DNA of 64,000 nt from an archaeon GW2011_AR15. Its GTDB lineage: Archaea > Nanobdellota > Nanobdellia > Woesearchaeales > GW2011-AR15. The DNA is taken from NCBI GenBank assembly GCA_000830295.1, contig CP010425.1, positions 420,884 through 484,883 on the forward strand, written 5' to 3'. Each line of letters begins with the position of its first letter. Position 1 is the first letter of the stretch. The notes beneath the pieces were generated by a model that saw nothing but the letters and a program-made list of their open reading frames with translations, had not been told where the DNA came from and made no database searches. This document shows, one piece after another, positions 15,780-52,341 of this stretch. The position numbers and the translations under genes were made by a program.

Positions 15780-15845
15780 CAGCCTTTTCAGGTCGCATTA
15801 AGCATGTGAAGTGCGTGCTTAGTATAACTTCGGAATTATAAGTGG

Positions 15846-15853: not shown

Positions 15854-15889
15854 TGTTGTGGATGGAGGAGTTTTGCCTTAAAAGTCTAC

Positions 15890-15931
15890 AATAAGTAAGA
15901 CTTATTAGGCAGATTTCACACTTATTGGGCA
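15890..15931. repeat. Inverted and direct half-sites upstream of the ribosomal operon promoter
   Basis: AATAAGT (15890-15896), a 3 nt gap, then ACTTATT (15900-15906) form a perfect 7 bp inverted repeat. ACTTATTAGGCA (15900-15911) recurs as ACTTATTGGGCA (15920-15931), exactly 20 bp on, two helical turns. The group lies between the stop of the small island gene and the operon TATA box. It may be a regulator site for the operon or an edge signature of the island. Confidence 0.45.
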
Positions 15932-15936
15932 AAAAA

Positions 15937-16278: not shown

Positions 16279-16305
16279 ATGCTTTTAATTTATATCAAAA
16301 ATAAT

Positions 16306-17511
16306 TTATTCTTCTACTTTTCCATCTATTAACTCCTGGACTGTCCTTAGAATAATAGTAATTCCTTTTTGATTTTTAACTCTAGCTACTTCTTCATATG
16401 CTCCCTTTGCAAATGAAAAAGCGACTATATATCCTTTCTTTTTATGGACTCTGTCCATAGCTGGTTGAAAATTATCTATAACATTCCGTCCTACACCTTC
16501 GCTTTGTTTAACCTGTATAGGATAACCTCCAGATATTTGAGGAGTAACCCCATCTATTCCCATATCTCCTGATTTTGTTCCACTAACATTGCCAAGAAAT
16601 TTATCAACAACAACCCAATTTTGAAAATCAAAGGGGTTTAACTTCTGAACATATTTTAAATCTACTTTCCCTTTGATAATTTGTGGGCTTACTCCCAAAT
16701 CTTGCCTTAATCTTCTTGCCATAACTTTACAGGCAGTGGGACTTATATCAATACCAATCCACCTTCTTTTAAGTTTTTGAGATACAACTAAAGTGGTTCC
16801 ACAACCACAAAAAGGGTCTAAAACTATACTACCTTCATTTGAAGAGGCTTTAATTATTCTTTTTAATAATGGTTCTGGTTTTTGCGTTGGAAACATTTGT
16901 TTTATTGGTGGAACTCTACCAATATCCCATACATCATCCATTGGAACCCCCTCAGAGTCTTCTTTTGACATTTTGGCAGGAATTCTTTTACCATTATCAT
17001 CATAACCTGAAATTATTTTTGCATTTCCAAATCGCTTTAAGGTTGATTCTGACCTTTCCATAAACATCTTATTGAATACCCTTTTGTCATTATCTGTCTT
17101 TGAATAGAATAAGAGGACATCATGATTTCGTTGAAATTGTTGCCATCCTCCCGACCATTTTCTATAATGCCATATTATCTCATTTCTAAAATTATTTTCT
17201 CCAAAAATATTATCCATTAATATTCTTAGATGTGCGTCGGCGTGCCAATCACAATGCAAATATATACTACCTGTTTTTTTAAGGATTCTATTACATTCCC
17301 TTAATCTTGGCTCCATCCATGTTATATAGTGCTCTATTCCCCCTTGCCATCGGTCTTGAAATGCTCTAAGTTCAGCACCATCTTTCCATATAACTTCATA
17401 ATGTCTATTAGAGAAGAAAGGTGGGTCTAAATAAATTAAGTCAACGCTTTCACTTGGAAATTTGCTTAATATCTCTAAGTTATCTCCTTCATAAATAGCA
17501 TTTACTTCCAT
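16306..17511 (-). CDS. Beta-class DNA methyltransferase fused to Mrr-like nuclease domain
   Basis: 401 aa from ATG at 17511. Methyltransferase part: DPPF at residues 29-32 (catalytic motif IV), then a target-recognition stretch, then DPFCGCGTTL at ~232-241 (SAM-binding motif I); the IV-to-I order marks the beta class of N4-cytosine/N6-adenine enzymes. After ~290 comes a second domain, LNPFDFQNWVV...SGDMGIDGVTP...YPIQVKQSE, with Asp ~320 and QVK 333-335 matching the D...QxK active site of Mrr-type PD-(D/E)xK nucleases. A single chain may thus both modify and cut. The start at 17511 is supported by TTTATATAA at 17535-17543, about 28 nt upstream (leaderless). An extra 20 in-frame codons upstream (TTG/GTG-type start) are rejected. 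Confidence 0.85.
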   Translation of the reverse strand: MEVNAIYEGDNLEILSKFPSESVDLIYLDPPFFSNRHYEVIWKDGAELRAFQDRWQGGIEHYITWMEPRLRECNRILKKTGSIYLHCDWHADAHLRILMDNIFGENNFRNEIIWHYRKWSGGWQQFQRNHDVLLFYSKTDNDKRVFNKMFMERSESTLKRFGNAKIISGYDDNGKRIPAKMSKEDSEGVPMDDVWDIGRVPPIKQMFPTQKPEPLLKRIIKASSNEGSIVLDPFCGCGTTLVVSQKLKRRWIGIDISPTACKVMARRLRQDLGVSPQIIKGKVDLKYVQKLNPFDFQNWVVVDKFLGNVSGTKSGDMGIDGVTPQISGGYPIQVKQSEGVGRNVIDNFQPAMDRVHKKKGYIVAFSFAKGAYEEVARVKNQKGITIILRTVQELIDGKVEE

Positions 17512-17533
17512 TAATGTATTCGTTATCGTCTTA

Positions 17534-17585
17534 GTTATATAAATTTTTTCAAAAATGAACGGGAGCAACACAAAATTTATATTAA
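17534..17585. promoter_or_regulatory. Divergent promoters of the two island methyltransferase genes
   Basis: Minus strand: TTTATATAA at 17535-17543, centred 28 nt from the ATG at 17511. Plus strand: TTTATATTA at 17577-17585, centred 19 nt before ATG 17600 and 37 nt before an in-frame ATG at 17618. The plus-strand spacing would fit a start at 17618 with a short leader. Confidence 0.45.
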
Positions 17586-17599
17586 ATTCCTACTAGATT

Positions 17600-18502
17600 A
17601 TGTTCAAAATAAAGAAAATGGAAGAAATTATCTCACAATTGCCCAAATCTAGAGTGAAAATAGTCTCAAAAAATAAAACTTCTCATGTTTTGGTTAATGG
17701 AAATTCACTAAAATTAATGAAAAATATGCCGGAGGAAAGTATACACTTGATAATAACGGACCCTCCATATAACATTGGATTGGATTATGGAGATGAGTAT
17801 AATGACAATAAGTCTAAAAAGGAATATTACCGGTGGTGTGAGGAATGGTTAACTGAATGCGCAAGAATTCTACATAAGGAGGGAAGTTTTTATCTGATCA
17901 GTTACCCTGAGATAAATGCCAGATTACTACCATTTATTGAAGATAATTTAAAATTAAATTTTCAGAGATGGATAACTTGGCATTATCCAACCAATATTGG
18001 ACACTCAAACAAGAATTACACAAGAAGTCATAGGTCAATACTATTTTTTACAAAATCAAGAAAATATGTTTTTAACAGAGAAAAGGTGTTACAGGCCTAT
18101 AAAAATCCTGAGGTTGGTAAAATCAAAGATAAAATCAGAGAGGGTTCTATAGGAAGGGCCGCATATGATTATCTTGAGAACAAAGATGTTCTAGAAATGC
18201 AGGAATTAGAGAAACTGCAGGAAAGATATTATGATATTCAAAAGATAAATCTCCTAAAAAATGTATCAAAAGATAGGGTTGGATCACTAAAAAAAGGAGA
18301 CAAGGACCACCATCCATGCCAATTACCATTACCACTATTGGAGAGGCTTGTTAAGGTTAGCAGCAAAGAAAAACAAATTTTATTTGACCCATTTGCTGGA
18401 ACATTTACACTCGCAAAAATTGCTTCTGATTTAGAAAGAAATTCAATAGGGATAGAGCAAAACCGATATTTTGTGAAGCTGGGAAGAGAGAGATTAGAAT
18501 GA
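17600..18502 (+). CDS. Beta-class DNA methyltransferase (N4-C or N6-A)
   Basis: 300 aa. DPPYNIG at residues 54-60 is motif IV, and DPFAGTFTLAKIASDLERNSIGIEQN at ~263-288 is motif I plus the following acidic strand; again IV before I. The middle part (IGHSNKNYTRSHRSILFFTKSRKYVFNREKV...KKGDKDHHPCQLPLPLLERL) resembles Type II/III modification enzymes that methylate adenine or cytosine N4. Sequence recognised is unknown. M7 (17618) may be the true start given the TATA spacing. Stop overlaps the DGQHR gene start by 4 nt. AT-rich codon use, unlike the ribosomal genes next door. Confidence 0.85.
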   Translation: MFKIKKMEEIISQLPKSRVKIVSKNKTSHVLVNGNSLKLMKNMPEESIHLIITDPPYNIGLDYGDEYNDNKSKKEYYRWCEEWLTECARILHKEGSFYLISYPEINARLLPFIEDNLKLNFQRWITWHYPTNIGHSNKNYTRSHRSILFFTKSRKYVFNREKVLQAYKNPEVGKIKDKIREGSIGRAAYDYLENKDVLEMQELEKLQERYYDIQKINLLKNVSKDRVGSLKKGDKDHHPCQLPLPLLERLVKVSSKEKQILFDPFAGTFTLAKIASDLERNSIGIEQNRYFVKLGRERLE

Positions 18503-20265
18503 AACAAAAATATTCAGCTAATGATGAGTTAAAAACCTTTGCTCAAAATCTTGGATTTAAAATATTTTTATTTGATGATATTATTACACTTGGCCCAGAA
18601 ATTAAACTTAGAGAACAAAGCAAAAGCTGTGAAATAGATGCTATTTTGATATATGAGAATTTAATTATTTTAGTTGGTATAACTAAAGGGGATTCTACAG
18701 GAACGAAAAAAGAAATAAACAAGTTTTTTGAAAGATTGGATAAAGTATATTATACAAAAGATATGAAGTTAAATTTAGAAATAAACACTTCAAATAAAGA
18801 GGCAATTAAAAAAAATATAATTAAGGCGAATATTTTGTATGAAGAACTTGAAAAAAATATTAAAGAAATTGAAAAAAATTATGAGCCAAAATTAACTAAG
18901 CTTTTTTTCTGCCCGAGACATAGTCTAGATGAATTAAAATTAAGAGATAGAAGCTCCTCTGGTGAATATATTATAGACAAAGATGTGAATGGGTATTTTA
19001 TTGCGGTTGTAGACAGGTTAAACACAAAAGTTCTTTTTAATGATTTTATGTATTTTTTAAATATAAAAAAAGTGGATTTGGAAAAAAAATCACCATCCAA
19101 AACAAAGAAACCCGGAAAAACATCACCTTACAGTCATGTAAGCAGGATGGAACTTGAGAAAGATAAAAGTATAATGTATTCATTTGCGGTTAAAGTAGAA
19201 GAAATAGTAGATTTTATCACTGTTCTAAGAGTATCACAAAAATATAATAAGAAAGGGTTCCAAAGGATGATAAAGAAGAAAAGATTAGATAAAATTAATG
19301 ATGGGTACCTAAATGAAAATGAAACATTTCCAAATAATGTTATTTTGACTCTAAACCCAAAAATATACCTAAATGAAAATGAGTTCTATGATAGAAATGA
19401 AAATGAGTTTAGATTTCTCGATGAGTTTAATTCATTGTATGTGATTGATGGTCAGCATAGAATTTTTTCCTTTATTAAAGGGGAAAAATTGGATAGGCCT
19501 GTGTTAATTTCTTTAATTTTCTTTAAAACTGGAAATGATGATGAGAAAGCACTCAGTATGGATAGAATGTTTTATGAAATAAATAAAAAACAAGAAAAAA
19601 TTGATCCGAATTTAAGTTTCATTCTTAAGGCGAGGATTGATCAAGATTCCAATGAAAATTTCTGGTATGGTGTGTTTGATAAGTTAAAAGAAGATATATT
19701 GGGCAATTCTTATTCTTTTAAAGAAACAACAATTAGAGATAAAGAGAAAAAAAGTATAGTGAGCCTAATAACGTACGGTGGTGTATTCGCACTAAATGAT
19801 ACAAAAAAGAAAAAAGGAATAGAGCTGTTTGGTCTCAAAAAATTTTATTCAGAAGAAAAACAAAAGAATATAGAGTTTGTTATTTGTTTTTTAAACAATT
19901 ATTTCAAAATTATAGCTAAAGTTCTGAATAAACAAAATATAGATGAAAAAAAATTAACTGTAAGAGATATAGGTGCACTTTTGAGATTAATTAAACATTT
20001 CTTATTGTCTAAAAAAGAAGAATTAAAACTTTTAGGAGAAGTTAAAAATATAATAAAAAATGAAGAAAATAAAGATCTTATCAACTATTTAGAAAAAATA
20101 TTGAACTATATACCATTCAAGGAGGTAGTAATGTTAGAGTATGGGTCAAGTAAGTGGGCAGCAATAGAAGGATATATGCTTAAAAAAATTAATGATATTG
20201 ATCAACGTTTTGGCAATAAAATTTTGCTCTCAAAAAAAGGACTTGAAGTATATAACCAAATATAA
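18499..20265 (+). CDS. DGQHR-domain protein with N-terminal nuclease-like region
   Basis: 588 aa. The motif VIDGQHRIFSF sits at residues ~315-325 (DGQHR at 317-321), the signature of the DndB/DpdB-type family related to ParB/sulfiredoxin folds; downstream MDRMFYEINKKQEKIDPNLSFILKAR is also typical. In the N-terminal ~100 residues, CEIDAILIYENLIILVGITKGDS has the look of a degenerate PD-(D/E)xK core (E..D...V.ITK). Known relatives regulate or take part in DNA phosphorothioation or 7-deazaguanine modification, and others occur as orphans near methyltransferases, as here. No Dnd or Dpd partner is present in the window. It overlaps the methyltransferase gene by 4 nt, so they are co-expressed. Confidence 0.75.
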   Translation: MKQKYSANDELKTFAQNLGFKIFLFDDIITLGPEIKLREQSKSCEIDAILIYENLIILVGITKGDSTGTKKEINKFFERLDKVYYTKDMKLNLEINTSNKEAIKKNIIKANILYEELEKNIKEIEKNYEPKLTKLFFCPRHSLDELKLRDRSSSGEYIIDKDVNGYFIAVVDRLNTKVLFNDFMYFLNIKKVDLEKKSPSKTKKPGKTSPYSHVSRMELEKDKSIMYSFAVKVEEIVDFITVLRVSQKYNKKGFQRMIKKKRLDKINDGYLNENETFPNNVILTLNPKIYLNENEFYDRNENEFRFLDEFNSLYVIDGQHRIFSFIKGEKLDRPVLISLIFFKTGNDDEKALSMDRMFYEINKKQEKIDPNLSFILKARIDQDSNENFWYGVFDKLKEDILGNSYSFKETTIRDKEKKSIVSLITYGGVFALNDTKKKKGIELFGLKKFYSEEKQKNIEFVICFLNNYFKIIAKVLNKQNIDEKKLTVRDIGALLRLIKHFLLSKKEELKLLGEVKNIIKNEENKDLINYLEKILNYIPFKEVVMLEYGSSKWAAIEGYMLKKINDIDQRFGNKILLSKKGLEVYNQI

Positions 20266-20337
20266 ACTAGATAATTATTTCTTTTTTATTAGGAGAGTCT
20301 TCAACCCCACAACATCTACATCCACAACCAAAAACCT
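20266..20337. terminator. Convergent intergenic spacer with T-rich terminator signal
   Basis: Between the convergent DGQHR and HEPN genes. The plus strand has TTTCTTTTTTATTA at ~20279-20291, a T-run of the kind that ends archaeal transcripts. No clear hairpin or gene is seen. Confidence 0.35.
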
Positions 20338-20763
20338 CTATCTCCGGATTAATCCCTCCAGAACATCAATACTATGCCTAAACTCCGGCTCATTCTGCTC
20401 AAGGTAAGAAGGCTCTACAAATATGCCGTCATAATTGATCCTGTTTCTTATGTTTTTCAGCTGATGAACTGTAAATGACTCATACTCATATTCCGGATAT
20501 GTTTCTTTAAAGAAAGATATCAGGCACTCGTGATTGCCGGATTTAAGGCCGTTTTTCAATAATAGAGCTGTCAGCAATTCTCTTATTGTTTCATAATACA
20601 TAACAGCAATTATCGACGATGTCTCCCTGTCTTTTTTGATCTGCTGTATTGACTTAACCCTGGCCTTTGAAACTTTTAATATAGATATAATTTTGTCTTT
20701 ATCAGGTTCCACTTTCTTAAGAAATTCCTTTTTGCACCTTTCATAGTGTATGATTTCCCTCAT
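20338..20763 (-). CDS. HEPN-domain toxin, probable RNase of a HEPN-MNT pair
   Basis: 141 aa, helical. The segment LKNIRNRINYDGIFV near residues 105-119 gives R-N-R-I-N-Y, a variant of the HEPN active motif Rx4-6H in which Tyr takes the His place. Upstream helix YYETIRELLTALLLKNGLKSGNHECLISFFKE is also typical. In known pairs the HEPN protein is an RNase toxin silenced by adenylylation by its MNT partner. Start overlaps the MNT gene by 4 nt, as expected for such a pair. Confidence 0.75.
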   Translation of the reverse strand: MREIIHYERCKKEFLKKVEPDKDKIISILKVSKARVKSIQQIKKDRETSSIIAVMYYETIRELLTALLLKNGLKSGNHECLISFFKETYPEYEYESFTVHQLKNIRNRINYDGIFVEPSYLEQNEPEFRHSIDVLEGLIRR

Positions 20764-21257
20764 AACCTACCGTATAAAGGTATGCCGTTGATAATATTGT
20801 TTCTTAGTTCCTCGGACAGTTTCCGGAAATCCGGCTCAAAGAACAAGTTAACCCTGTGGTTAAGTGCTCTCTCAAACTTTCCTAAATTAACTTCTTTTTC
20901 GTTTGCCATGATATACAGATCAATGTCGCTCTCTTTGTCATATTCCCCTTTTGCCACGCTGCCGAATAAGACTATTGCTTTGGGGTATATGCTCTCTGCA
21001 AGGGCCTGTATCAACCCTGAGCTGTAAATCTTTTCTATAAGAAAATGCTTTTTATACACCTTATACAGCATATTTTCGGTGGCAGCCACATATTTATCAT
21101 ACGGCTCGTCTTTTTTCCTTATTACTATCCCCTGCTTTACCAGCTCTTTTAATTTGCCTGAAGCGGTTGTTTTGGGCGTTTTAGTTAATCTTGCAACTTG
21201 CCTCAGGTAGAATTCTTTTCCCGGGTTTTCATAGAATAGTTCTGCTAACTGTCCCAT
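20760..21257 (-). CDS. Winged-helix MNT nucleotidyltransferase, antitoxin of HEPN pair
   Basis: 165 aa. Residues 1-65 form a winged helix (FYLRQVARLTKTPKTTASGKLKELVKQGIVIRKK). Residues ~93-118 hold the minimal nucleotidyltransferase motif AIVLFGSVAKGEYDKESDIDLYIM, with GS and DxD metal ligands. The N-terminal DNA-binding part suggests it represses its own operon; three matching half-sites TGTCCCA lie at its promoter and start codon. Forms an operon with the downstream HEPN gene. Confidence 0.85.
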   Translation of the reverse strand: MGQLAELFYENPGKEFYLRQVARLTKTPKTTASGKLKELVKQGIVIRKKDEPYDKYVAATENMLYKVYKKHFLIEKIYSSGLIQALAESIYPKAIVLFGSVAKGEYDKESDIDLYIMANEKEVNLGKFERALNHRVNLFFEPDFRKLSEELRNNIINGIPLYGRL

Positions 21258-21297
21258 TTTTAGTACATTTGTCCCATAGTTGGGACATATATTTAAA
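21250..21297 (-). promoter_or_regulatory. MNT-HEPN promoter with palindromic operator
   Basis: TGTCCCA-TAGT-TGGGACA at 21270-21287 is a perfect 7 bp inverted repeat. A third half-site TGTCCCAT at 21250-21257 covers the start codon, exactly 20 bp from the first. The TATA-like TTTAAATAT lies at ~21288-21296 (minus strand reading), so the palindrome spans the expected transcription start, the common repressor position in archaea. Confidence 0.65.
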
Positions 21298-21345
21298 TGT
21301 TTGTAAAAAAATATCCTAAATTACTAAGATTATTGCAAAAACATA

Positions 21346-21468
21346 TTATAAATACAAAGTTCTAAACTGTTTAAACCTCCTCTTTCCCTGTTCGTCCCGC
21401 AGGTTCTCATTTTTATCTAAAGAATACTCCTCTATCATCTTTCTATATTCAAACACATTCAAAAACAT
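21346..21468 (-). CDS. Possible 40 aa leaderless ORF, unknown
   Basis: ATG at 21468, stop at 21346-21348. Product starts MFLNVFEYRKMIEEYSLDKN and is highly charged; no family recognised. The AT box around 21488-21495 lies 24 nt upstream, the leaderless spacing used elsewhere here. May be chance in AT-rich DNA. Confidence 0.35.
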   Translation of the reverse strand: MFLNVFEYRKMIEEYSLDKNENLRDEQGKRRFKQFRTLYL

Positions 21469-21487
21469 ACATCAAATCCCAACAATC

Positions 21488-21495
21488 TTTAAATA
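21488..21495. promoter_or_regulatory. Near-palindromic TATA box between two tiny divergent ORFs
   Basis: TTTAAATA, containing the palindrome TTTAAA. It lies ~26 nt before a plus-strand ATG (21518) and ~24 nt before a minus-strand ATG (21468), so it could drive both leaderless ORFs. Confidence 0.45.
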
Positions 21496-21517
21496 TCAGC
21501 CTATCCAATAAAATCAC

Positions 21518-21667
21518 ATGAAATGCCCACATTGTAATAAAATAATTGAATCTAAAGAAACTAAACTAGTTAAGAAAATATATGAATTAGCTATTCAAGG
21601 CAAAAAAGACGAGATAAATGAAAAAATGGTTCCGCAATTGGAAGAATTAAAACTATCTGTTGAGTAG
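21518..21667 (+). CDS. Small 49 aa protein with CPHC knuckle, unknown
   Basis: Starts MKCPHCNKIIESKETKLVKK and ends with a charged helix; a single CxxC half-knuckle could bind metal as a dimer or be a remnant of a zinc ribbon. TTTAAATA lies ~26 nt upstream, the leaderless spacing. No family recognised. The stop lies 25 nt before the end of the convergent VapC gene. Confidence 0.5.
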   Translation: MKCPHCNKIIESKETKLVKKIYELAIQGKKDEINEKMVPQLEELKLSVE

Positions 21668-21692
21668 ATTCTACCCGACCAGCACCCTCTCC

Positions 21693-22061
21693 TTAGCCCC
21701 TAACAAACTCAACCCCGTCAACATTCTCAAAGTCTTTGTCGCCGGTAAGGAACTTCACGCCGTTCTTTACAGATAAAACATAACCCAATGCATCAACATA
21801 AGAGATATTACTGCCCTGCTTATGCTTAAAATAATTGGCATTGATTATATCTGTTTCACCAAATTCAATCATAAACCCTCTAAGTTCATTGAAAAACATC
21901 AGCGCATTTTCTTTCCCGAATTCTTTCATGGTTGAATAATGTAGCTCCATAAGATTGAGCAGCGTAGTAACAACTTTTGCATCCTTGTATTTTTCATAAT
22001 TTTTAGAGCCTTTTATTATCTCTATAAGGGCATACGTGTCGAAAAAATAAGCTTCGCTCAT
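21693..22061 (-). CDS. vapC: PIN-domain ribonuclease toxin, VapC type
   Basis: 122 aa from ATG at 22061. PIN acidic residues are visible: FFDTYALIEI (first Asp), MELHYS (Glu), YVDALGY (Asp) and FLTGDKDFENV (final Asp pair). Known VapC toxins are Mg-dependent RNases acting on tRNA or rRNA. A longer in-frame start at 22121 would overlap the antitoxin and adds a segment that looks like a duplicated piece of the gene's own start, so it is rejected. Confidence 0.85.
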   Translation of the reverse strand: MSEAYFFDTYALIEIIKGSKNYEKYKDAKVVTTLLNLMELHYSTMKEFGKENALMFFNELRGFMIEFGETDIINANYFKHKQGSNISYVDALGYVLSVKNGVKFLTGDKDFENVDGVEFVRG

Positions 22062-22103
22062 TTTTACGGACTCTCCGCTTTGCTGCGAGTGTCGAAAAAA
22101 TAA
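22036..22103. repeat. 15 bp direct repeat at the vapB/vapC junction
   Basis: GTGTCGAAAAAATAA occurs at 22036-22050 (inside vapC, encoding YFFDT) and again at 22089-22103 (just after the vapB stop). The copies are 53 bp apart. The pattern suggests a small duplication that opened the 43 nt gap between the two genes. Confidence 0.55.
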
Positions 22104-22104
22104 A

Positions 22105-22329
22105 CTATTTCCATCCTTCATCTATATCATCCATTATTTCTTGTGTAGATTTATTCCAGCCCTTTCCTGACCCAAATAATCTCTCAAGAGACTTTCTGCT
22201 CTGTTTTTCATCTATTATTATCATCTTCACTCTCCCTTTCAGATTATTCCTTTCCACTGTTTCTTTCCTTAATCTTATCCCAAATGAGTTGCCCCATCTC
22301 TTGACTTCTCCTTCAATTTCAACTGACAT
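22105..22329 (-). CDS. vapB: AbrB-type antitoxin, VapB family
   Basis: 74 aa from ATG at 22329: MSVEIEGEVKRWGNSFGIRLRKETVERNNLKG is the swapped-hairpin AbrB/MazE DNA-binding fold; the C-terminal part (SLERLFGSGKGWNKSTQEIMDDIDEGWK) should wrap the toxin. TATA-like TTTAAATA at 22353-22360 lies ~27 nt upstream, favouring a leaderless start at 22329 rather than the in-frame upstream codon at 22341. Confidence 0.85.
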   Translation of the reverse strand: MSVEIEGEVKRWGNSFGIRLRKETVERNNLKGRVKMIIIDEKQSRKSLERLFGSGKGWNKSTQEIMDDIDEGWK

Positions 22330-22333
22330 ATAA

Positions 22334-22348
22334 TTATACAATGTATAA
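22334..22348 (-). promoter_or_regulatory. VapB operator palindrome
   Basis: TTATACA-A-TGTATAA is a perfect 7 bp inverted repeat with a 1 nt centre, between the TATA box (22353-22360) and the vapB ATG (22329). Position and symmetry fit autorepression by the antitoxin. Confidence 0.6.
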
Positions 22349-22455
22349 TAAATATTTAAAGTTATCGGGGATAGGATTTAAGACAGGAAAAAATTAATAA
22401 GTTTATGCAGGAATTTTCCGAAAATTATTTATATTCTCAACCCATATATTAAACA

Positions 22456-22812
22456 ATGGTCAAGACGACAAGACACCATCGTTCTGTCATGTTTCTCAAT
22501 CTCGTTGCATTAGTAATTGTCCTCTTGGGATTAATATTAACAAGCAGATTATCCCACCCGACAGCCCACCTGGTAAGGATAACAGAAGGCAACAGCTTAG
22601 ATTCTAAATTATTGAAAACAGAAGACAGCTCGGCAATCATCTTCGAGACAGAGGACCGCAACACAACAACATACATACTCTCAACTTACCTAAACCACAG
22701 GAAATCAAATTACAACTCATTTATCGCACTGGCATTTTTCATAGCTGTTTTAACTTTCATCTATTTCATGTCTAAATTATATGTTTCTTACAAATCAGAG
22801 AAAACTATATAA
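22456..22812 (+). CDS. Small two-helix membrane protein, unknown
   Basis: 118 aa. Hydrophobic helices at ~11-29 (VMFLNLVALVIVLLGLILT) and ~88-108 (FIALAFFIAVLTFIYFMSKL) enclose a soluble loop with a run of charged and polar residues, probably outside the cell. TTTATATT at 22428-22435 lies ~25 nt before the ATG (leaderless). No family recognised. It ends 23 nt before the SpoIIM-like gene, which has its own TATA box. Confidence 0.65.
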   Translation: MVKTTRHHRSVMFLNLVALVIVLLGLILTSRLSHPTAHLVRITEGNSLDSKLLKTEDSSAIIFETEDRNTTTYILSTYLNHRKSNYNSFIALAFFIAVLTFIYFMSKLYVSYKSEKTI

Positions 22813-22835
22813 ACCAACCAATCCAAATCAGTTAA

Positions 22836-23687
22836 ATGGTCTTCGAGGACTTGATTGACCCTGCCAACGCAGAGTCCCATCCAAGAGCTGTCTTTCTCCA
22901 CAGCGTTATATACGTCTCTTTGGGGCTTTTTTTAGGATGGTGGATATTCGGGGAGTATGCCTCTTTAGTTGCAGTATTCCTGACGACAATGGCTGCCATC
23001 CCCCTGATGCACAGCATAATAAGGATAGAGGAAAAGAAAGATACAGTAATAGGTTCTGAAAAGAACCTGCTGAAAGAGCACTCAAAGGCCCTGAATGTCT
23101 TCATGGCATATTTCATAGGCGCGACGCTGACATTTGCCTTCTGGTATATAATACTGCCGCGGGACCTGAGCACTGCCATGTTCAATGTCCAGGAGAGCAC
23201 CCTGACTGCGCTGGGCGTCCAGGTCACCGGGTTTACCTTTGCTGATTTCAATACCTTCCTATCCATACTCGCAAACAACCTCAAAGTCCTGCTTTTCTGC
23301 ATACTGTTTTCCTTCCTTTACGGCGCGGGCGCGATATTCATACTCACGTGGAACGCGTCTGTCATAGGCTCGGCAATAGGCGTTACAATACTGAAGGGGA
23401 TGGCAGAATTAGGGTTAAGACTCCACGAGAATTTCAGCCTGAACCACCTGACCGTGATTTCATACGGCCTGCTGAGATATACAGTGCACGGCATCCCTGA
23501 GATACTTGCCTATTTCATAGCAGGGCTGGCAGGCGGGATAATTTCTGTTGCAGCAATAAGGCATGACTTCAGGACAAAAAGATACAGGCAGATAATAACA
23601 GATGCTTCTGTGCTGCTGCTGCTGAGCTTCATAATACTGGTTCTCGCTGCGTTCTTAGAAGTGTACGTGACGCCGGTATTATTCTAG
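22836..23687 (+). CDS. SpoIIM/DUF95-family membrane protein
   Basis: 283 aa with about six membrane helices. LFSFLYGAGAIFILTWNASVIGSAIG and YTVHGIPEILAYFIAGLAGGIISVA are hallmarks of the stage II sporulation protein M-like family widespread in archaea, function unknown there. The TATA box CTATATAAAC at 22805-22814 is centred 27 nt before ATG. The end overlaps the convergent OB-fold gene by 9 nt. Confidence 0.85.
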   Translation: MVFEDLIDPANAESHPRAVFLHSVIYVSLGLFLGWWIFGEYASLVAVFLTTMAAIPLMHSIIRIEEKKDTVIGSEKNLLKEHSKALNVFMAYFIGATLTFAFWYIILPRDLSTAMFNVQESTLTALGVQVTGFTFADFNTFLSILANNLKVLLFCILFSFLYGAGAIFILTWNASVIGSAIGVTILKGMAELGLRLHENFSLNHLTVISYGLLRYTVHGIPEILAYFIAGLAGGIISVAAIRHDFRTKRYRQIITDASVLLLLSFIILVLAAFLEVYVTPVLF

Positions 23688-42284: not shown

Positions 42285-42571
42285 TCATAAAAAAACATGC
42301 CAGACAGGGAAAGCTTGTTCTTGCGATTTGCGACTCTGATATTCTTGGGAAATCATTTTCAGAAGGAGATGCTGTTCTCGACCTTAAATCCGAGTTCTAC
42401 AAAGGTGAAAAGATGCCTGAGGAAAATATCCTGAAGCTTGTCAGGGTATGCTACATGATCAATGCTATCGGAAAAAAATCGACCGGGTTCCTGATAGAGA
42501 AAGAGATCATATCAAAAGAAGATATAAAAGAAATCGGCGGTGTTCCTTATACCCTTGTCCTTTTTGGCTAG
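42281..42571 (+). CDS. DUF424 family protein
   Basis: 96 aa from ATG at 42281: LVLAICDSDILGKSFSEGDAVLDLKSEFYKGEKMPEENILKLVRVCYMINAIGKKSTGFLIEKEII. The GKxFxEGxxxLxLxxxFYxGE pattern is the DUF424 signature; the family often neighbours aIF2-beta or Nmd3 genes in archaea. Function unknown; context suggests translation. Its last 4 nt overlap the convergent PolD gene. Confidence 0.8.
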   Translation: MIIKKHARQGKLVLAICDSDILGKSFSEGDAVLDLKSEFYKGEKMPEENILKLVRVCYMINAIGKKSTGFLIEKEIISKEDIKEIGGVPYTLVLFG

Positions 42572-45500
42572 CCAAACCACTTGCCCAGGCCTTCCTGCCT
42601 TTCCTTTTCCTTTCCAAGAACAGAGTCAACCTGCTTCTGCAGAAAATACAATGTCTGCATCAGGTAATCCGATACTTTATATTTTTCAGCGAGGCTTATT
42701 GTCGGCTGCAGATACTTAACTATGCTTCCCTCTGCCACTGTGAAGATTATCTTGCCCTGGCATGATGTGCACCTGCCGGCCAGCGGCGGCCTCCTGTATT
42801 TCTTATTGCATGATACGCACCTGAATCTCTGTGTTGAGAATTTTCTTAGGTTTCCCCTTATGTCCTTCAGGAAATGCTTTTCTATCACAAGCTGGGCAAC
42901 GTCTCCTGTATTGACTGCGACTATCTTCTCAGCCAGGTCCATCTGCCCCATCAGCTTGTCCTGCATTGTGGGCAGAAGCTTATATGCCGACCTGAGTACT
43001 CCTGAATTTATATCTGATATTTCATGCGTGTATCCCATGCCCTCATACTGCTCTTCTGTGTTGAGGACATCATCTATCTGGAGGATTTCAACCTCCCACG
43101 GATACTTGTATTCAAGGGCTGCCTCATACAGCTCAAGAGGATAGCTCCATGCAATGTCCATGCCGTGCACCTCGTCATCAACTTCTCCGGGCACAAGCAG
43201 GGAAGTCAGTACTAACGGAGCGTCCATTGTCCTTGAGCCTCTCTTGTCCGGAAGATATGACCTTGAAAAATTGAGGAATGCGTCAAGAAGAAGTATTACG
43301 CTTGCCTCGTCCCCATCGCAATTCCTCCTCATTGCTGCGTGGAACATGGGGTGGGTGAGCATGCCCTGTGTTTTTGAAAACCCTATTACCCTCCCGACTG
43401 TCCCTGCTGACGTATGAGGCGCAAGGCCGACAACAAGATGGCCTATGATGTCTTTTTTTGTTTTAAGGTTGTAATACGGCGGAAGCCTGTACAGCCTGGC
43501 CAGCAGCTCGTCTATAAAATTTGCTGTCCTGTACAGCATCTCATCTGCAGGCTCTTCTGCTGATTCCGGAGATCCGGGAAGAATCATATCCTGCGGCTTA
43601 AGCTCCGCTACCTGCTCTGCTGACTCCAGTTTTTTTCCATGGATGTCGTGCTTATATCCCAGCTTCTGCAGTTCTGCTATGCTTGTTCCTATTTCTTTCG
43701 GCCTGAAATGTGTTATAGGAAGCTCTATCATATCATACCTTGTTGTGCCGTCTTTGTTAACGTATATTTTATGTTTTGCGCGCAGGACGCCCTTGAGCAG
43801 ATTTTCTGTAATGTGCGTTCTGTTGCTTGTTCCCCTTACGCCTTTTATCAGGTCCGGATAGATGGAAAGCCCTGCTCTTTCGAGTGTTTTTGTGAAGATA
43901 TCATTTATGTCAATGTCTCTTTTCATGTATTCGTAGACCCTGTCATGCTGGCATTTTTCAGCTATTATCTTGCAGGTTTCGCAGTAATATCTCTTTCTGG
44001 TTTTTGTTGCGCAGGTTTCACAGACAGAGAAGATTGTTTCTTTGCTGCATTTTTCGCAGAAAAAGACAGGGAACTCTGCTGTTATTTTTTTCTTTTCAAA
44101 TGCAGACTGCAGGCTCTTCAGCCTTCCTCCCTCTGCGCCGACAGGAAATAGGAAATGCGGGCTGCCTGTCAGCTTTCTCATTTTTGCCTTTTCCGGCCTG
44201 CCCATTCTTGCTCCGATAAATGTGCCTCCCTTATCCATTATTTGAATTCCTGACGCTGCGGAGAGTATTTCCAAGGTTCCCTCTTCTTTCTTTAGCGCGT
44301 CTTTTATTTTCTCCTGGTTTTTTATGAAAAGCATGTAAACAGTATGGGCGTGCTCCTTTTCTATGACTATAAACTCCCTGTTCACCAGAAGGTGAGGCAT
44401 GCCTATCTTTTCCAGGATCTCTTTTTCTTTCTGGCTGTTGCCCAGTATTAATTTTGTTATTTTTTCATCTTCTTTTTTGACATTGGCAGAAGATATCCAT
44501 TCTGACAGCGCAGAAAGCTCTTCTTTTGTGATGTTTTGCCAGAAATATGTGTAATCGGGATGAAGCGGTATCCTAAATTGTTTTGAGATCCTGAACGCCA
44601 TCCTTGCGGATATTTTTATTTTCATTGGGCTTTCGAACAGGTGCCTTATGTTTTCCGGTTCCGCGCCTATAATTTCCGCACACTTGTCAATATCAAGCGA
44701 ACCAAAGAGTCCTACTGCCGCCTTTTCAAGGTCCTTTATCCACCATTCCTGGCAATATCCTGCAGGCACAAGCCTGTGCCCGTTCTCTGAAAAATCTCCG
44801 TAATTGAAAAGCACGTCCCCGAGAAACAGTATCTTGTCTATTTCCTCCGTCTTTACTTTATTTGAAGACAGCTGGAGCACTGACCCGTCTTTTATTTTTA
44901 CTATTGGCCCGTCAATTGAGTCGCATGGCACAATTGCTGCTGCTTTTCCCGGCCTCTCCATTTTTAGCTGTGTGCCTGTCGCAATATAATTATTCAGAAT
45001 GTCCATTGTCCTCGGGTGGATTGCTGCCGCTGCAAGCCCCGTCGTCCTTGTCCTCCCGTATCTGAGCCTAAGCCCCCCTACCCTCATGGGAAAAGACAGC
45101 ACCGGACGGCCCGCAACGAGATCTTCTATAAAAGTATAGTTGGGGGTTATCTTTGCCTTTGTTTCTGTTTTCTCCCCCTTTGCCTTTGCTTTTTTCTGGA
45201 GTTCAAGGAATTCTGTGAGGAAGCCCCAGTCAATGCCGAATTCTTTTCCCCATATCTGGAGCTGCTTGTCGATTTTTTTTGCCTTCTGTGCCATTCCCTC
45301 TGCAACAACAAGGCAAATTCCCCCCCTTATCCTGTTTGTTTCGACTCTCTCAAGGTCCTTATAGTTTGAGACCTCAAAATCTTCTGTCGGGTCGCCGTTG
45401 ATCTCTATCGGCATATGCTCTACCAGATATGTAATCTCTTCTTCTGACGGCACATACTGGAGATTGGTGACCCTGTCATGGTAGTCCCTTATTTCTATTG

Positions 45501-46074
45501 CTGTCCTCAGGATTTCTTTTGCTGTGGGGTCATACGGATAGTAGCCCATCTTTATTCGGACATAGTCCGCAATGATGACAGAAAAGGCCTCTGCTGTTCC
45601 TCCTGCTGCCCTGATTGGCCCGGCATAAAATGCAGAGAGATATTCCTTGCCGTCCCTTCTTTTTTTTATTTTAAGCTCTATAAATCCCTCCAGCGGCGCT
45701 GAAATAACCCCGAGGGTTATATACGCCAGGCCTACCCTGATTCCTGTTTCCATTGCCTTTAGTTTTGATTCGTGCCTGTAGAATTTATCCTGGGCAACTT
45801 CTTCTGCAATCTTCAGCGCAACCCTCCAGTCGAGCTGGCCGTATTTTTTTTCAAGCTGGACTATCCTCTGGGCAACTCCCGAGCCGAGTATCTTCGGAGA
45901 AACAGCACTTATCAGACCTTCAACTCTCTGGGCAACTCCCTTTGCAATTGGTATGTCAACCTTTTGCTCAGGGTCAAAAGATAGTTCCCTCGCTTTTTTT
46001 GCAAGCTCGTATGTTTCCAGGACTCCTGAATCTATCCTGTCAAAGTATTCTGTCATCCCTTTTGAAGCGTTCAT
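42568..46074 (-). CDS. polC: DNA polymerase D large subunit DP2
   Basis: 1168 aa from ATG at 46074, whose start overlaps the DP1 stop. Catalytic double-psi-barrel region contains NCDGDEASVILLLDAFLNFSR near residue 917 (the DxD metal motif), plus NRHRIGxxMxRPEKA-like GARMGRPEKAKMRKLTGSPHFLFPVG. Zinc sites: CEKCSKETIFSVCETC...YYCETC (~680-710) and CVSCNKKYRRPPLAGRCTSCQG (~1080-1100). No intein interrupts the catalytic core. The C-terminus ends GLGKWFG, a possible PCNA-binding tail. Main replicative polymerase of many archaea. Confidence 0.97.
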   Translation of the reverse strand: MNASKGMTEYFDRIDSGVLETYELAKKARELSFDPEQKVDIPIAKGVAQRVEGLISAVSPKILGSGVAQRIVQLEKKYGQLDWRVALKIAEEVAQDKFYRHESKLKAMETGIRVGLAYITLGVISAPLEGFIELKIKKRRDGKEYLSAFYAGPIRAAGGTAEAFSVIIADYVRIKMGYYPYDPTAKEILRTAIEIRDYHDRVTNLQYVPSEEEITYLVEHMPIEINGDPTEDFEVSNYKDLERVETNRIRGGICLVVAEGMAQKAKKIDKQLQIWGKEFGIDWGFLTEFLELQKKAKAKGEKTETKAKITPNYTFIEDLVAGRPVLSFPMRVGGLRLRYGRTRTTGLAAAAIHPRTMDILNNYIATGTQLKMERPGKAAAIVPCDSIDGPIVKIKDGSVLQLSSNKVKTEEIDKILFLGDVLFNYGDFSENGHRLVPAGYCQEWWIKDLEKAAVGLFGSLDIDKCAEIIGAEPENIRHLFESPMKIKISARMAFRISKQFRIPLHPDYTYFWQNITKEELSALSEWISSANVKKEDEKITKLILGNSQKEKEILEKIGMPHLLVNREFIVIEKEHAHTVYMLFIKNQEKIKDALKKEEGTLEILSAASGIQIMDKGGTFIGARMGRPEKAKMRKLTGSPHFLFPVGAEGGRLKSLQSAFEKKKITAEFPVFFCEKCSKETIFSVCETCATKTRKRYYCETCKIIAEKCQHDRVYEYMKRDIDINDIFTKTLERAGLSIYPDLIKGVRGTSNRTHITENLLKGVLRAKHKIYVNKDGTTRYDMIELPITHFRPKEIGTSIAELQKLGYKHDIHGKKLESAEQVAELKPQDMILPGSPESAEEPADEMLYRTANFIDELLARLYRLPPYYNLKTKKDIIGHLVVGLAPHTSAGTVGRVIGFSKTQGMLTHPMFHAAMRRNCDGDEASVILLLDAFLNFSRSYLPDKRGSRTMDAPLVLTSLLVPGEVDDEVHGMDIAWSYPLELYEAALEYKYPWEVEILQIDDVLNTEEQYEGMGYTHEISDINSGVLRSAYKLLPTMQDKLMGQMDLAEKIVAVNTGDVAQLVIEKHFLKDIRGNLRKFSTQRFRCVSCNKKYRRPPLAGRCTSCQGKIIFTVAEGSIVKYLQPTISLAEKYKVSDYLMQTLYFLQKQVDSVLGKEKERQEGLGKWFG

Positions 46075-47492
46075 TTTGATTCGAAGTTTATCTTGGTTGT
46101 TTTTCTTGTCTGGAGGTCTATGTATATTGCCCATGCCGGCTGCGGCATAAGTCCCCTCCTTTCCTGGTATTTTGTCTGTGATATCCAGCAGGAGCAGTTG
46201 AGGAGTGTGACATTCCTGTAAGTATCGACAGATATCCTGTGAACGTGCCCGGTTGCGAGTATGTCCGGTACATCTTCTATTACAAGCGGGTCTCCATCAT
46301 ATCCCAGCTGATACTGTGTTGAGCCGTGTGTGGGGGCCAGGTGCCGCCTCTTTAGAAGGTATTTTAGAATGTTTTCTGTTGCCTCAAGGCCGCCTGCCTG
46401 CCTGATGGAATTGATGCTGGAAGCATAATAAGGGAAGGAAAACCCGTGGTAAAGCAAAATATCGATGCCGCTGAATGCCGCTGTCCTCCCTATGTTCACT
46501 ATGCTCGGGCTGGAAACGAGTATAATGTTTTCCTTTGATACAAGTTCCGGGATTAACTCTGACGGGAGTTCCGGCTGGGGCTCTGCTATTCTCACCGGGT
46601 CGTGGTTGCCGGGGCAGAGGATTATGGTAATATGCTCAGGAATTTTTTTTATGTAGTCGCTGAACTGCCTGTACTGCCCATATATATCTTCAACCTCAAG
46701 CTCTTTTTCCTGGCCGGGAAAAATTCCTATCCCCTCAACCAGGTCGCCGACTATGAAAAGGTATTTTATTTTTGATACCAATTCTTTCTGTGCTGCATCT
46801 CCTGTTTCTCCCCTTATCCAGGAAATAAATTTTTCAAATTCTTTTCTCAGAAAAACCTGTGAGCCTATGTGAATGTCACTTATGAACACGGCTGCTTCTG
46901 CGTCCGGGCTTTTTTTAAGTTCTTTCGTGAGCGGAACGTCCGGCTGGACAATTGTGTTAAGGAAAATTATGTCGTTTCCTTTCATCCCTCCCACACCAAC
47001 AACCTCATCCGGCGTCAGGTCTTTTGCCTGAGTGTGGAGGTCTTTGTTGTTTTTTGTGACAACTGCCTTTATAGTGCCTGTCTGGTCTTCCAGAACAAGC
47101 ATGACATTGTCATTTTTTGTGACGCTAACATCCATTATCATGGCAATCAGTGAAACCTGTTCGCCTTCCTGGGCGGTCTTGCACTTTCTTATGGACATCG
47201 CATGCTCAAGCTCTCTCCTGCCCATAAGGATAGACTGGAGAAGTAGGTATCTGCTGTTATAAGTGTTGACAAAATCCATGAGGTCTTTTTTTGCGCTCTG
47301 TTCCTCATATGTTTTCACAACCTCCACTTTTCTCCTGTGTGCCGGATGTTTTTTATCCTCTTTTCTTATTGGTGTTGTCTCGGTGGCGGGTTGGCCCTCC
47401 TGTTTTTCTGGGATGTTGCCAAGGTCTGCCTCGGTCATGTCTGGGCTTACCAGTATGCCCTTCTCCAGATATTCCTTTATTTTATCCCTCAT
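46071..47492 (-). CDS. polB: DNA polymerase D small subunit DP1, 3'-5' exonuclease
   Basis: 473 aa. Phosphodiesterase motifs: SDIHIGS near residue 200, GDLVEGIGIFPGQ near 235, CPGNHDPVR near 293, and ATGHVHR near 414, all expected for the active proofreading nuclease. An OB-fold (VSLIAMIMDVSVTKNDNVMLVLEDQTGTIKAVV) precedes. N-terminal ~80 residues are charged. Sits between orc1/cdc6 and DP2 in one operon. Confidence 0.96.
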   Translation of the reverse strand: MRDKIKEYLEKGILVSPDMTEADLGNIPEKQEGQPATETTPIRKEDKKHPAHRRKVEVVKTYEEQSAKKDLMDFVNTYNSRYLLLQSILMGRRELEHAMSIRKCKTAQEGEQVSLIAMIMDVSVTKNDNVMLVLEDQTGTIKAVVTKNNKDLHTQAKDLTPDEVVGVGGMKGNDIIFLNTIVQPDVPLTKELKKSPDAEAAVFISDIHIGSQVFLRKEFEKFISWIRGETGDAAQKELVSKIKYLFIVGDLVEGIGIFPGQEKELEVEDIYGQYRQFSDYIKKIPEHITIILCPGNHDPVRIAEPQPELPSELIPELVSKENIILVSSPSIVNIGRTAAFSGIDILLYHGFSFPYYASSINSIRQAGGLEATENILKYLLKRRHLAPTHGSTQYQLGYDGDPLVIEDVPDILATGHVHRISVDTYRNVTLLNCSCWISQTKYQERRGLMPQPAWAIYIDLQTRKTTKINFESK

Positions 47493-47493
47493 T

Positions 47494-48708
47494 CTACAAA
47501 CCCAGGGCCTGTGTAAGAATCGTTTTGCATTTCTGCTTTATTGTACTCCCTATTTCTGATTTTATCTCCCTTGTCCTCCCGTATCTCCCCTTTGAAATTA
47601 TAGTTGCATTTATGATTCCGAGCATGTCAAGTTCGCCGATTATATCTGATATCCTCCTCTGTGTAAGCGGCCTAAGATCTGTCTTGAGGCAGAGTTTCTT
47701 GTAAATTTCATAAACATCGCCAGTATATACGCTCAGACTGTTGTTTTTTTCAAACATGAAAAGGATGCTGAGCAGTGCAACCTGAGACTGCTTTGGCTGG
47801 GTCTTTACTATCTCCAGAATCCTTTCTTTCTCTATTTTTTCCTCCGCATCGTCCAGGTGGTCTATTCTGACTTTTGAAATCCCTTTTCTTTCAGCAATCT
47901 CTCCTGCAACCCTCAGCAATTCCAGCGCCCTTCTGGCGTCCCCGTGCTCCCTTGCCGAATATGCTGCGCATTTTTCAATCACTCCTGCTTCAAGTGCATC
48001 ATTTTTGAATGCCTGCTCTGCTCTTTTCTTCAGGATTTCCTTGAGCTGCACTGCATTGTATGGTGGAAACACGAGCTCCTCTTCGCTAAGCGAACTCCTC
48101 ACCCTTGGGTCCATGCTTTCTGTAAATATCAGGTTGTTGCTGATCCCTATCAGGGTAATTGTTGTGGCGGAGATTTCCGTGTTGATTCTCGTCAGGTTGT
48201 AAATAACTTCGTCTCCGGCCTTTTTGATCAGCTGGTCTATTTCGTCAAGAATTATAATCACGTTCTTTTGCTTGGATTTCTCAAGAATCTTGAAAAATTT
48301 GTTGTATACCTCGTCTGTCGGCAGGCCGGTGTACGGCACCTCTTCTTCAAATTCTTTTATCAGCTGTGCAATCAGCCGGTATTCTGTGTCTGCAATCCTT
48401 TTCATCTTGCAGTTGAGGTATATTATTTTAAGCGGAATTTTTCTTTCTGTTGCAATCTGCTCCATCTTTCCGGAGACGTGCTTTATCGTAAGTGTCTTGC
48501 CGGACCCGGTCTTGCCATAAATGAAGAGATTGGAGGGTTTGTCCTGCTTCAGTGCGGGCGCAAGGATGGCGGCAATTGTGTTTATCTGCTCCTCCCTGTG
48601 GATAACTGTTTCCGGAGTATATGATGCCTGAAGGGACTTCTTGTCCTTGAAAATAAGATTCTCATCAAGATACTTCTCAAAAAACCCCGCCAGCCCCTTT
48701 TGTGCCAT
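47494..48708 (-). CDS. cdc6: Origin-binding initiator Orc1/Cdc6
   Basis: 404 aa from ATG at 48708. AAA+ motifs: Walker A GKTGSGKTLT near 64-71, Walker B IILDEIDQL near 152, sensor LIGISNNL, arginine region DPRVRSSLSEEELVFPPY, and a C-terminal winged helix (LSVYTGDVYEIYKKLCLKTDLRPLTQRRISDIIGELDMLG). TTTATAAACC at 48731-48740 lies ~28 nt upstream, indicating a leaderless start; the in-frame upstream start at 48777 is not conserved. Next to a probable origin at 48765-48917. Confidence 0.97.
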   Translation of the reverse strand: MAQKGLAGFFEKYLDENLIFKDKKSLQASYTPETVIHREEQINTIAAILAPALKQDKPSNLFIYGKTGSGKTLTIKHVSGKMEQIATERKIPLKIIYLNCKMKRIADTEYRLIAQLIKEFEEEVPYTGLPTDEVYNKFFKILEKSKQKNVIIILDEIDQLIKKAGDEVIYNLTRINTEISATTITLIGISNNLIFTESMDPRVRSSLSEEELVFPPYNAVQLKEILKKRAEQAFKNDALEAGVIEKCAAYSAREHGDARRALELLRVAGEIAERKGISKVRIDHLDDAEEKIEKERILEIVKTQPKQSQVALLSILFMFEKNNSLSVYTGDVYEIYKKLCLKTDLRPLTQRRISDIIGELDMLGIINATIISKGRYGRTREIKSEIGSTIKQKCKTILTQALGL

Positions 48709-48712
48709 TCGG

Positions 48713-48726
48713 GTTTCCAGATGAAA
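48713..48726 (-). promoter_or_regulatory. Possible mini-ORB in the cdc6 promoter
   Basis: Minus strand TTTCATCTGGAAAC resembles a mini-ORB dyad without the G-string. It lies between the TATA box and the cdc6 ATG, where binding by the initiator could repress its own gene. Tentative. Confidence 0.3.
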
Positions 48727-48764
48727 TATAGGTTTATAAAGTTTTGTGTTCTCAATCTTTCGTG

Positions 48765-48917
48765 CCCCCCTCCCCATGTTTTCCTGTGGAACTCGCGTAT
48801 TTGGTTTTTTTGTTTCTTGGTTTTTATTTTATTTATTTTTATTTTTCAATATAGTAAATAATATAATTTTAAGAATTCTTTTTTATTTTATACCCGTTCC
48901 AAAAGAAACCGGGGGGG
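48765..48917. other. Predicted replication origin (oriC): inverted ORBs around AT-rich unwinding region
   Basis: ORB-1 on the minus strand (48792 down to 48765): dyad GTTCCACAGGAAAAC followed by ATGGGGAGGGGGG. ORB-2 on the plus strand (48896-48917): GTTCCAAAAGAAAC, then C and seven G. Both match the archaeal origin-recognition-box layout (TTCC..GGAA-type dyad plus G-string) and face opposite ways with the dyads inward. Between them, ~48800-48893 is almost only A and T (runs of T and ATTTATTTTTATTTTT), suitable for duplex opening. The site abuts orc1/cdc6, the usual archaeal location. Confidence 0.78.
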
Positions 48918-48960
48918 CCGGGCGGATGCCACCACTACCTAATGATAAATAACCTAAACC

Positions 48961-48980
48961 TTTAAATATAAACAATTGTT
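48961..48980 (+). promoter_or_regulatory. TrmB gene promoter with AACAATTGTT palindrome
   Basis: Box A TTTAAATATAAA at 48961-48972, overlapped by the 10 bp palindrome AACAATTGTT at 48971-48980. The expected start of transcription near 48992 gives a ~75 nt leader ending in GAGGGG about 10 nt before the ATG, one of the few leadered genes here. Confidence 0.45.
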
Positions 48981-49066
48981 CACTTCCACTCTCACAGGCA
49001 GAAGGTTCAGGGAAGCCACAAAGAAAAGGGAGAACACAGCAAAGAAAGAACGCGAGGGGAAAAAGA

Positions 49067-49840
49067 ATGATTGTTGAAAAAAAAATATTATCAAAACTAA
49101 AGGACTTTGGCCTTAATTCATATGAAAGTAAGGTGTGGGTTGCTCTGCTCTCAAGGGGAGTTTCTACCGCAGGGGAGCTTTCTGACATTGCAAATGTTCC
49201 AAGGTCAAGATCCTATGATGTTCTGGAAAGCCTTGAAAAAAAGGGATTTGTTGTGATGAAACTGGGAAAGCCAATAAAATATATTGCAGTGCCGCCGCCC
49301 GAGGCAATAGAAAGGCTAAAGAAGAGAGTTGCTGCAGAGGCCGAGGAGCACAGCAAGATTCTTGAAGAACTAAAGGACAGTGAGGTTATGTTACAGCTTA
49401 CCTCTCTCCATACCGACGGGATAGAGACACAGGACCCAAGCGAGCTGACAGGGAGCCTGAAGGGAAGAGAAAATATATACAACCACCTCGAATATCAAAT
49501 AAAATCTGCAAAGAACCGCGTTGTTATAGCAACAACAGAAGAGGGGCTCAAAAGAAAAACAGTGGCACTCCTTAAGCAGATAAAAAAAGCAAAAGAGAGG
49601 GGAGTTGAGATTATGATTGCAGCACCCTATACAGAAAAGACAAAGAAAGAAAGGGAAATGCTTTCAGAATATGCAGAGATGAAAAACATAACCATGCCAA
49701 GCACAAGGGCATGCATTGTGGACAACAAACAGGTTACGCTGATGCTTACAGACGACAAAGAGGTTCATCCGAGCTATGATCTTGCGATATGGATGAACTC
49801 GCCATATTTTGCCAAATCTTTGACGTCGGCTCTTAACTGA
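49067..49840 (+). CDS. TrmB-family transcriptional regulator
   Basis: 257 aa. Winged helix at 1-75 (LKDFGLNSYESKVWVALLSRGVSTAGELSDIANVPRSRSYDVLESLEKKGFVV), a coiled-coil linker (~80-110), then an effector domain with phospholipase-D-like fold (ENIYNHLEYQIKSAKNRVVIATTEEGL...GVEIMIAAPYTEK...RACIVDNKQVTLMLTDD). TrmB proteins control sugar or central metabolism; target unknown here. Sits on the far side of the origin. Confidence 0.9.
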   Translation: MIVEKKILSKLKDFGLNSYESKVWVALLSRGVSTAGELSDIANVPRSRSYDVLESLEKKGFVVMKLGKPIKYIAVPPPEAIERLKKRVAAEAEEHSKILEELKDSEVMLQLTSLHTDGIETQDPSELTGSLKGRENIYNHLEYQIKSAKNRVVIATTEEGLKRKTVALLKQIKKAKERGVEIMIAAPYTEKTKKEREMLSEYAEMKNITMPSTRACIVDNKQVTLMLTDDKEVHPSYDLAIWMNSPYFAKSLTSALN

Positions 49841-52269: not shown

Positions 52270-52317
52270 TTATGCAGGTAATGTATGTTTGTTTTTATAT
52301 ATTGTGAAGGGCAAGTT

Positions 52318-52341
52318 ATTATTTTCTATATAGAAAATAAT
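52318..52341. promoter_or_regulatory. 24 bp perfect palindrome between rnz and endA
   Basis: The 24 bp from 52318 to 52341 read the same on both strands, centred in TATATA (core TTTTCTATATAGAAAA). It lies between the divergent TATA boxes of RNase Z (minus) and the splicing endonuclease (plus, TTTTTATA at 52358-52365). A dimeric regulator site controlling both tRNA-processing genes is the simplest reading. Confidence 0.6.

Follow-up and report, generated by a model that had tools for sequence, protein, structure and literature searches.

Does the DNA upstream of orc1/cdc6 in this archaeon serve as the origin of chromosomal replication, and which proteins would act on it? An earlier note had proposed an origin here and had guessed at a DPANN lineage. 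We analysed the surrounding window, a stretch of 64,000 nucleotides (G000:C1:420884-484883) from a genome contig of 1,157,690 bp. (Positions below are those of the window unless they are given in kb or Mb or with a contig.) The nearest named loci, as judged from the Orc1 proteins of the relatives, belong to metagenome-assembled genomes of Candidatus Woesearchaeota and Nanoarchaeota, so the guess about the lineage was right.

The orc1/cdc6 locus and its origin recognition boxes

The genes around the locus are:

47494..48708, minus strand: orc1/cdc6 initiator gene, with AAA+, Cdc6 lid, and winged-helix C-terminal (Cdc6_C) domains and with PDB matches
46071..47492, minus strand: small subunit of DNA polymerase D (DP1), directly 3' of orc1
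42568..46134, minus strand: large subunit of DNA polymerase D (DP2), in the same direction as orc1 and DP1
49067..49840, plus strand: TrmB-family regulator gene, divergent, on the side of the origin that faces away from orc1

The domains and the best PDB matches, 2qby_A (E 4.6e-102) and 2v1u_A (E 9e-96), identify the orc1/cdc6 product as an initiator-type Orc1. (We take these structures to be Sulfolobus Orc1-1 and Aeropyrum ORC1.) As the earlier note had described, orc1/cdc6 abuts the site and is followed by both PolD genes in one operon. The adjacency of orc1 and DP1 is kept in 77 of 79 named relatives. Of 63 readable relatives, 20 have a TrmB-family gene upstream of orc1.

Two origin recognition boxes (ORBs) flank an A+T-rich core:

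48765..48792, minus strand: left ORB (dyad TTCCACAGGAAA and G-string), with its polarity outward, toward orc1
48793..48895: A+T-rich core, 103 bp between the dyads, 83.5% A+T
48896..48917, plus strand: right ORB (dyad TTCCAAAAGAAA and G-string), inverted relative to the left ORB

The left ORB, read on the minus strand from 48792 to 48765, is GTTCCACAGGAAAACATGGGGAGGGGGG, and the right ORB, read on the plus strand from 48896 to 48917, is GTTCCAAAAGAAACCGGGGGGG. We confirmed both positions, and the dyads do face inward and the G-runs outward. The relatives have the same element as the left ORB in the position nearest to orc1. If orc1 is drawn from the ATG at 48777, then it overlaps the left ORB. 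But the alignment with Orc1 homologs begins at MxQKGLxxFFE, so the true start is most likely the ATG at 48708, and both ORBs are intergenic. A TATA box at 48741-48731 lies shortly before this ATG.

The earlier reading would have been undermined if ORB-like sites were just as common at random positions, and they are not. The entire contig has three exact matches to TTCCANNNGAAANNNNGGGG, two of which are the ORBs described here; the chance expectation is about 0.035 (for 13 fixed bases, both strands, and equal base frequencies). We also built a weight matrix from the relatives' ORBs only, leaving out this genome's own, and scanned 464 kb (the window and 20 sampled stretches, each of 20 kb, which together cover 40% of the contig). 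The two origin ORBs scored 28.0 and 25.4. Only a site at 870.4 kb scored above both (37.3), and the next score after these three was 13.1.

The core was expected to be about 95 bp of nearly pure A/T. It is indeed A+T-rich, but it is 103 bp long and, at 83.5% A+T, not nearly pure. Equally A+T-rich windows of 103 bp make up only 0.025% of the sampled sequence. Because the known design of archaeal origins includes an unwinding region, we presume that the core is the duplex unwinding element. Nearly every readable relative from the order has three elements upstream of orc1: an ORB that points outward, A+T-rich DNA, and then an ORB in inverted orientation. Throughout the class, inverted ORBs upstream of orc1 are a conserved arrangement.

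A third dyad lies at the promoter of orc1:

48715..48732, plus strand: ORB-like dyad TTCCAGATGAAA, between the TATA box and the start of orc1
48731..48741, minus strand: TATA/BRE region of orc1 CTTTATAAACC, from its sequence and its conservation beside the dyad

This dyad is weaker than the two origin ORBs. A dyad of the form TTC-N4-GGA (TTTCNNNTGGAAA) is found between the TATA box and the start of orc1 at 34 of the order's 49 origins, versus 0.8 expected. We predict that it is an autoregulatory site for Orc1.

Strand asymmetry around the locus

If replication starts at this locus, then nucleotide skew should change there, as the earlier note had pointed out. The raw cumulative GC skew is noisy and follows gene orientation. 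Because gene orientation dominates it, we replaced it with skew at fourfold-degenerate sites, centred separately for the genes of each strand, and computed this across the same 464 kb (20 stretches of 20 kb and the window).

Within the window, the fourfold A/T skew is -0.174±0.035 to the left of the locus and +0.135±0.036 to the right. The strongest A/T transition is at 470 kb (t = 10.2, with trial positions every 5 kb). If the window is left out, the transition is at 485 kb (t = 8.8), which is inside the unsampled gap. When all pairs of breakpoints were searched, the best fit for the A/T skew was 470 kb and 1.06-1.09 Mb, and none of 20,000 block permutations reached the observed contrast. The transition in GC skew is weak, with a t of 2.2 at 470 kb and a peak of 3.5 at 320 kb. 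Overall, the skew agrees with an origin at the locus: the A/T skew changes sign there.

A second single-contig genome (G019) has GC-skew breakpoints at about 770 kb and at 150-190 kb, and the palindrome of its orc1 origin (see below) is at 763.7 kb. (The A/T skew of G019 behaves differently from that of the genome studied here.) The results from these two genomes support a single origin at the locus.

Two other features of the window's composition are a long run of strongly negative A/T skew in the left replichore (3000-16000, down to -0.46) and an island of low G+C content (15000-23000, with 28-38% G+C, versus 43-47% in the rest of the window), where the skew also changes. The island may be foreign DNA.

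Could the locus be inactive, or only one of several origins, with replication starting at, for example, the ORB near 870 kb? That ORB is the strongest single one in the sampled genome, and the skew is noisy. However, the A/T skew turns positive at 470 kb and remains so past 870 kb, until about 1.06 Mb, and the 870-kb ORB stands alone. As there is no skew change at this ORB, we disfavour it as a second origin, and we consider a start elsewhere to be highly improbable.

The 870-kb site (870429-870448, minus strand, in G000:C1:870300-871019; L084 10300-11019) is the third perfect ORB. It is about 115 bp upstream of a gene for a 152-amino-acid coiled-coil/HTH protein, which has weak YabA-like and FUR-like matches. 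It lies inside an array of GTCTC/GAGAC repeats, with 6-13 repeats per 400 bp. The ORB and the array are both kept in most of the closer orthologs, from several families of the order (the relatives are L298-L305, L308, L309, and L314). This ORB is a candidate for an Orc1-controlled promoter or an auxiliary Orc1 site.

The rarity of the ORBs, the skew transition, the conserved layout, the synteny of orc1 and DP1, and the initiator-type Orc1 encoded next door all support the proposal of a chromosomal replication origin. The locus is very probably the single origin (oriC) of a Woesearchaeota-like DPANN archaeon, and of the archaeal oriC1 kind.

A central palindrome and a candidate protein

The earlier description of the core did not mention a palindrome at its center. 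The palindrome and the related features in this genome are:

48841..48860: central palindrome TATTTWC-WATATW-GWAAATA, 20 bp, with a 16-bp core at 48843-48858 (TTTTCAATATAGTAAA)
52322..52337: second exact palindrome TTTTCTATATAGAAAA, midway in the divergent promoter region of RNase Z and EndA, 3.5 kb from oriC
G000:C1:728254-728571: gene for the candidate binder, a small putative winged-helix protein

Between the core of the central palindrome and the ORBs there are 50 bp on the left side and 37 bp on the right. We scored sites out of 20, with a cutoff of at least 18, and used dinucleotide shuffles to compute the expectation. At this cutoff, the palindrome is found at 35 of 49 origins from the order, versus 0.09 expected (some of the order's origins had served to define the pattern), and at 8 of 34 origins from other orders of the class, none of which were used to define the motif, versus 0.10 expected. 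Inverted ORBs lie on both sides in 32 of the 40 full-length upstream regions that carry it. Many families have retained the palindrome. A few origins in the order (G047, G192, and G308) have no clear palindrome. The C and the G are nearly invariant, at fixed positions. Given this conservation, the palindrome is almost certainly a real and specific site for a protein.

In relatives from the class that lack the palindrome (L126, L132, L135, L137, L142, and similar loci), we often saw a different layout of the origin. On the side of orc1, these have two ORBs in direct orientation, separated by about 50-72 bp, and a single inverted ORB lies upstream, at a distance of about 200-350 bp.

The palindrome is not confined to origins. 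Across 60 genomes, there are about 75 exact matches, versus 3 for a reversed control. Most of those away from origins lie in the intervals between divergent genes, at distances of 30-140 bp from the start codons. In G002, G006, and G052, the palindrome has the same position between RNase Z and EndA as it does here. (Other observations are a near-match at 52293-52308 and additional palindromes about 1-11 kb from orc1 in G059, G019, G006, G052, and G021.)

These copies also bear on whether the palindrome needs a protein at all. It is self-complementary and lies within the A+T core, so it might be a structural element of the unwinding region, such as a cruciform or an easily melted segment, with no dedicated protein. 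But neither structure nor melting alone would require near-invariant C and G positions, and exact copies are found in ordinary promoters. We view a purely structural role as very improbable.

Which protein binds the palindrome? We looked for repeated families among the genes that adjoin palindromes and found a family of small proteins (105-115 amino acids) with a helix-turn-helix and a wing-like pattern (RSIYYHLKKG...GDYSWG). In two of the order's families, its gene adjoins palindromes. In a search of 40 genomes, it was present in all 21 that have the palindrome and in none of the 19 that do not. (For two of the 21, G046 and G052, the palindrome at the origin was confirmed after the search.) With two more genomes whose origins carry both, the agreement is 42 of 42, but on the Orc1 tree this comes down to only 1-2 independent changes of state (gains or losses), so it is statistically weak and is not independent evidence.

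Two other observations stand independently of this count. First, 15 of the candidate's 24 orthologs have a palindrome-like site in their own promoter (within 120 bp and with a score of at least 16). The same holds for 12 of 763 control genes (1.6%), and the expectation from shuffling is 0.65. These sites are mostly 34-51 bp from the start codon. The other 9 orthologs have no clear palindrome in the promoter, and the site at the candidate gene in this genome is degenerate (16/20). Second, in nine palindrome-positive genomes from other orders, which form one clade, the candidate gene is within about 3.5 kb of orc1/oriC. In the Woesearchaeales-like genomes that we examined, the gene is not beside oriC (the distance in this genome is 258 kb).

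The family had no meaningful match in Pfam, NCBIfam, or PDB (comparing its profile to PDB gave no convincing chain), and folding one ortholog (L271) as a single sequence gave a poor model (pLDDT of 50). We therefore describe it as a putative winged-helix family, based on its sequence pattern. Overall, this family is likely to be what binds the palindrome.

Other candidates fared less well. Two ribbon-helix-helix proteins are encoded downstream of palindromes, but their relatives are not, and we rejected them. The TrmB-family neighbor is disfavoured because it is upstream of orc1 in so few relatives (20/63). (In a profile comparison, TrmB and the candidate family gave no alignment.) The remaining idea is that a second Orc1/Cdc6 paralog, rather than the winged-helix family, binds the palindrome. 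Most of the genomes do contain a paralog, and Sulfolobus Orc1-2 is described as a transcriptional regulator (PMC9738581). But the distributions do not match: the palindrome is perfect in G121 and G096, where the paralog gave no hit, while most palindrome-negative genomes have the paralog. We rejected it on these grounds; a role for it here is most improbable. In this genome, the paralog (G000:C1:990973-992040; L010 1504-2574) is 34% identical to the initiator. It is kept in most of the order and the class, and by eye, the gene after it (L010 2609-3244) resembles a GINS subunit.

A proposed mechanism and its relation to other archaeal origins

By extension from the systems of Sulfolobus and Pyrococcus, Orc1/Cdc6 would bind the two inverted ORBs and load MCM onto the A+T-rich DNA between them. 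Orc1 would probably also bind the third dyad, in the promoter of its gene, and repress itself. The small putative winged-helix protein would sit on the palindrome as a dimer. The same protein would control its own gene, occupy a number of other intergenic sites, and double as a general nucleoid or regulatory protein. We think that this reading as a whole, an oriC with ORBs bound by Orc1 and a palindrome bound by the small winged-helix protein, is probably correct.

What might a protein do at the center of the origin? In Sulfolobus, a motif known as ucm lies between ORB2 and ORB3 and is essential for the activity of oriC1 (PMC12141716). It is bound by UBP, which contacts the N-terminal domains of MCM and has over 300 sites (PMC12141716). 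Like Sulfolobus oriC1, the locus described here has an A+T-rich region that is flanked by inverted ORBs and contains a short conserved motif near its middle, and this motif, like ucm, recurs at many other intergenic sites. There are also differences. The ucm is 11 bp and is bound by monomeric UBP (the free dimer is saddle-shaped), whereas the motif here is a 20-bp palindrome, and the fold of UBP differs from the putative winged-helix pattern of our candidate. UBP has been reported only from Desulfurococcales and Sulfolobales (PMC12141716). Because UBP is restricted to two orders and has another fold, we claim only that the palindrome and the candidate protein would work like ucm and UBP; we propose that they are analogues, not homologues. 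By this analogy, the winged-helix protein, positioned between two loaded MCM hexamers, might aid in activating or spacing the helicases. We consider a UBP-like role in origin activation to be plausible, but slightly less than an even bet.

Alternatively, this could be an ordinary ORB-type oriC in which the palindrome plays no part in initiation and is only an operator through which a transcription regulator controls the surrounding divergent promoters. The palindrome is in many other divergent promoter regions, and the origin in this genome is itself between divergent genes. However, the palindrome is kept in the A+T core even where the neighbor is not TrmB (which is the neighbor in 20/63), most of the palindromes (32/40) are between inverted ORBs, and in another clade the gene for the candidate binder adjoins oriC. 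Also, Sulfolobus provides a documented case of dual use, with many genomic sites and an essential site at the origin (PMC12141716). We consider an operator with no other role to be unlikely, but it deserves to be taken seriously.

Origins with this type of ORB were already known. In Pyrococcus, the single origin is directly upstream of cdc6, has ORB repeats, and is flanked by eukaryotic-like replication genes (PMC4010727). The locus here has the same placement upstream of the initiator gene (in orc1-DP1-DP2), but it differs in having two inverted ORBs and a conserved central palindrome. Haloarchaeal oriC1 also has ORBs with G-strings, but is from a different lineage. What is new is the central palindrome and its putative dedicated protein, and the palindrome's partner is likely an undescribed small DNA-binding protein. 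We did not find a description of Woesearchaeota origins or ORBs in the literature searched (subscription papers were mostly outside the search's reach).

The discoverers of UBP wrote in 2025 that it would be of considerable interest to know whether analogues of UBP exist at the origins of other archaea that are more divergent (PMC12141716). This locus offers a concrete site and a candidate protein in a lineage that is very distant from Sulfolobus. Tentatively, and with more doubt than about the UBP-like role itself, we suggest that a DPANN lineage evolved its own further component of initiation, independently of UBP: a small winged-helix protein on a palindrome between Orc1 sites, acting on two MCM hexamers. 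A central spacer factor would then be a recurrent need of archaeal origins. If this is true, then a central factor between two loaded helicases arose more than once.
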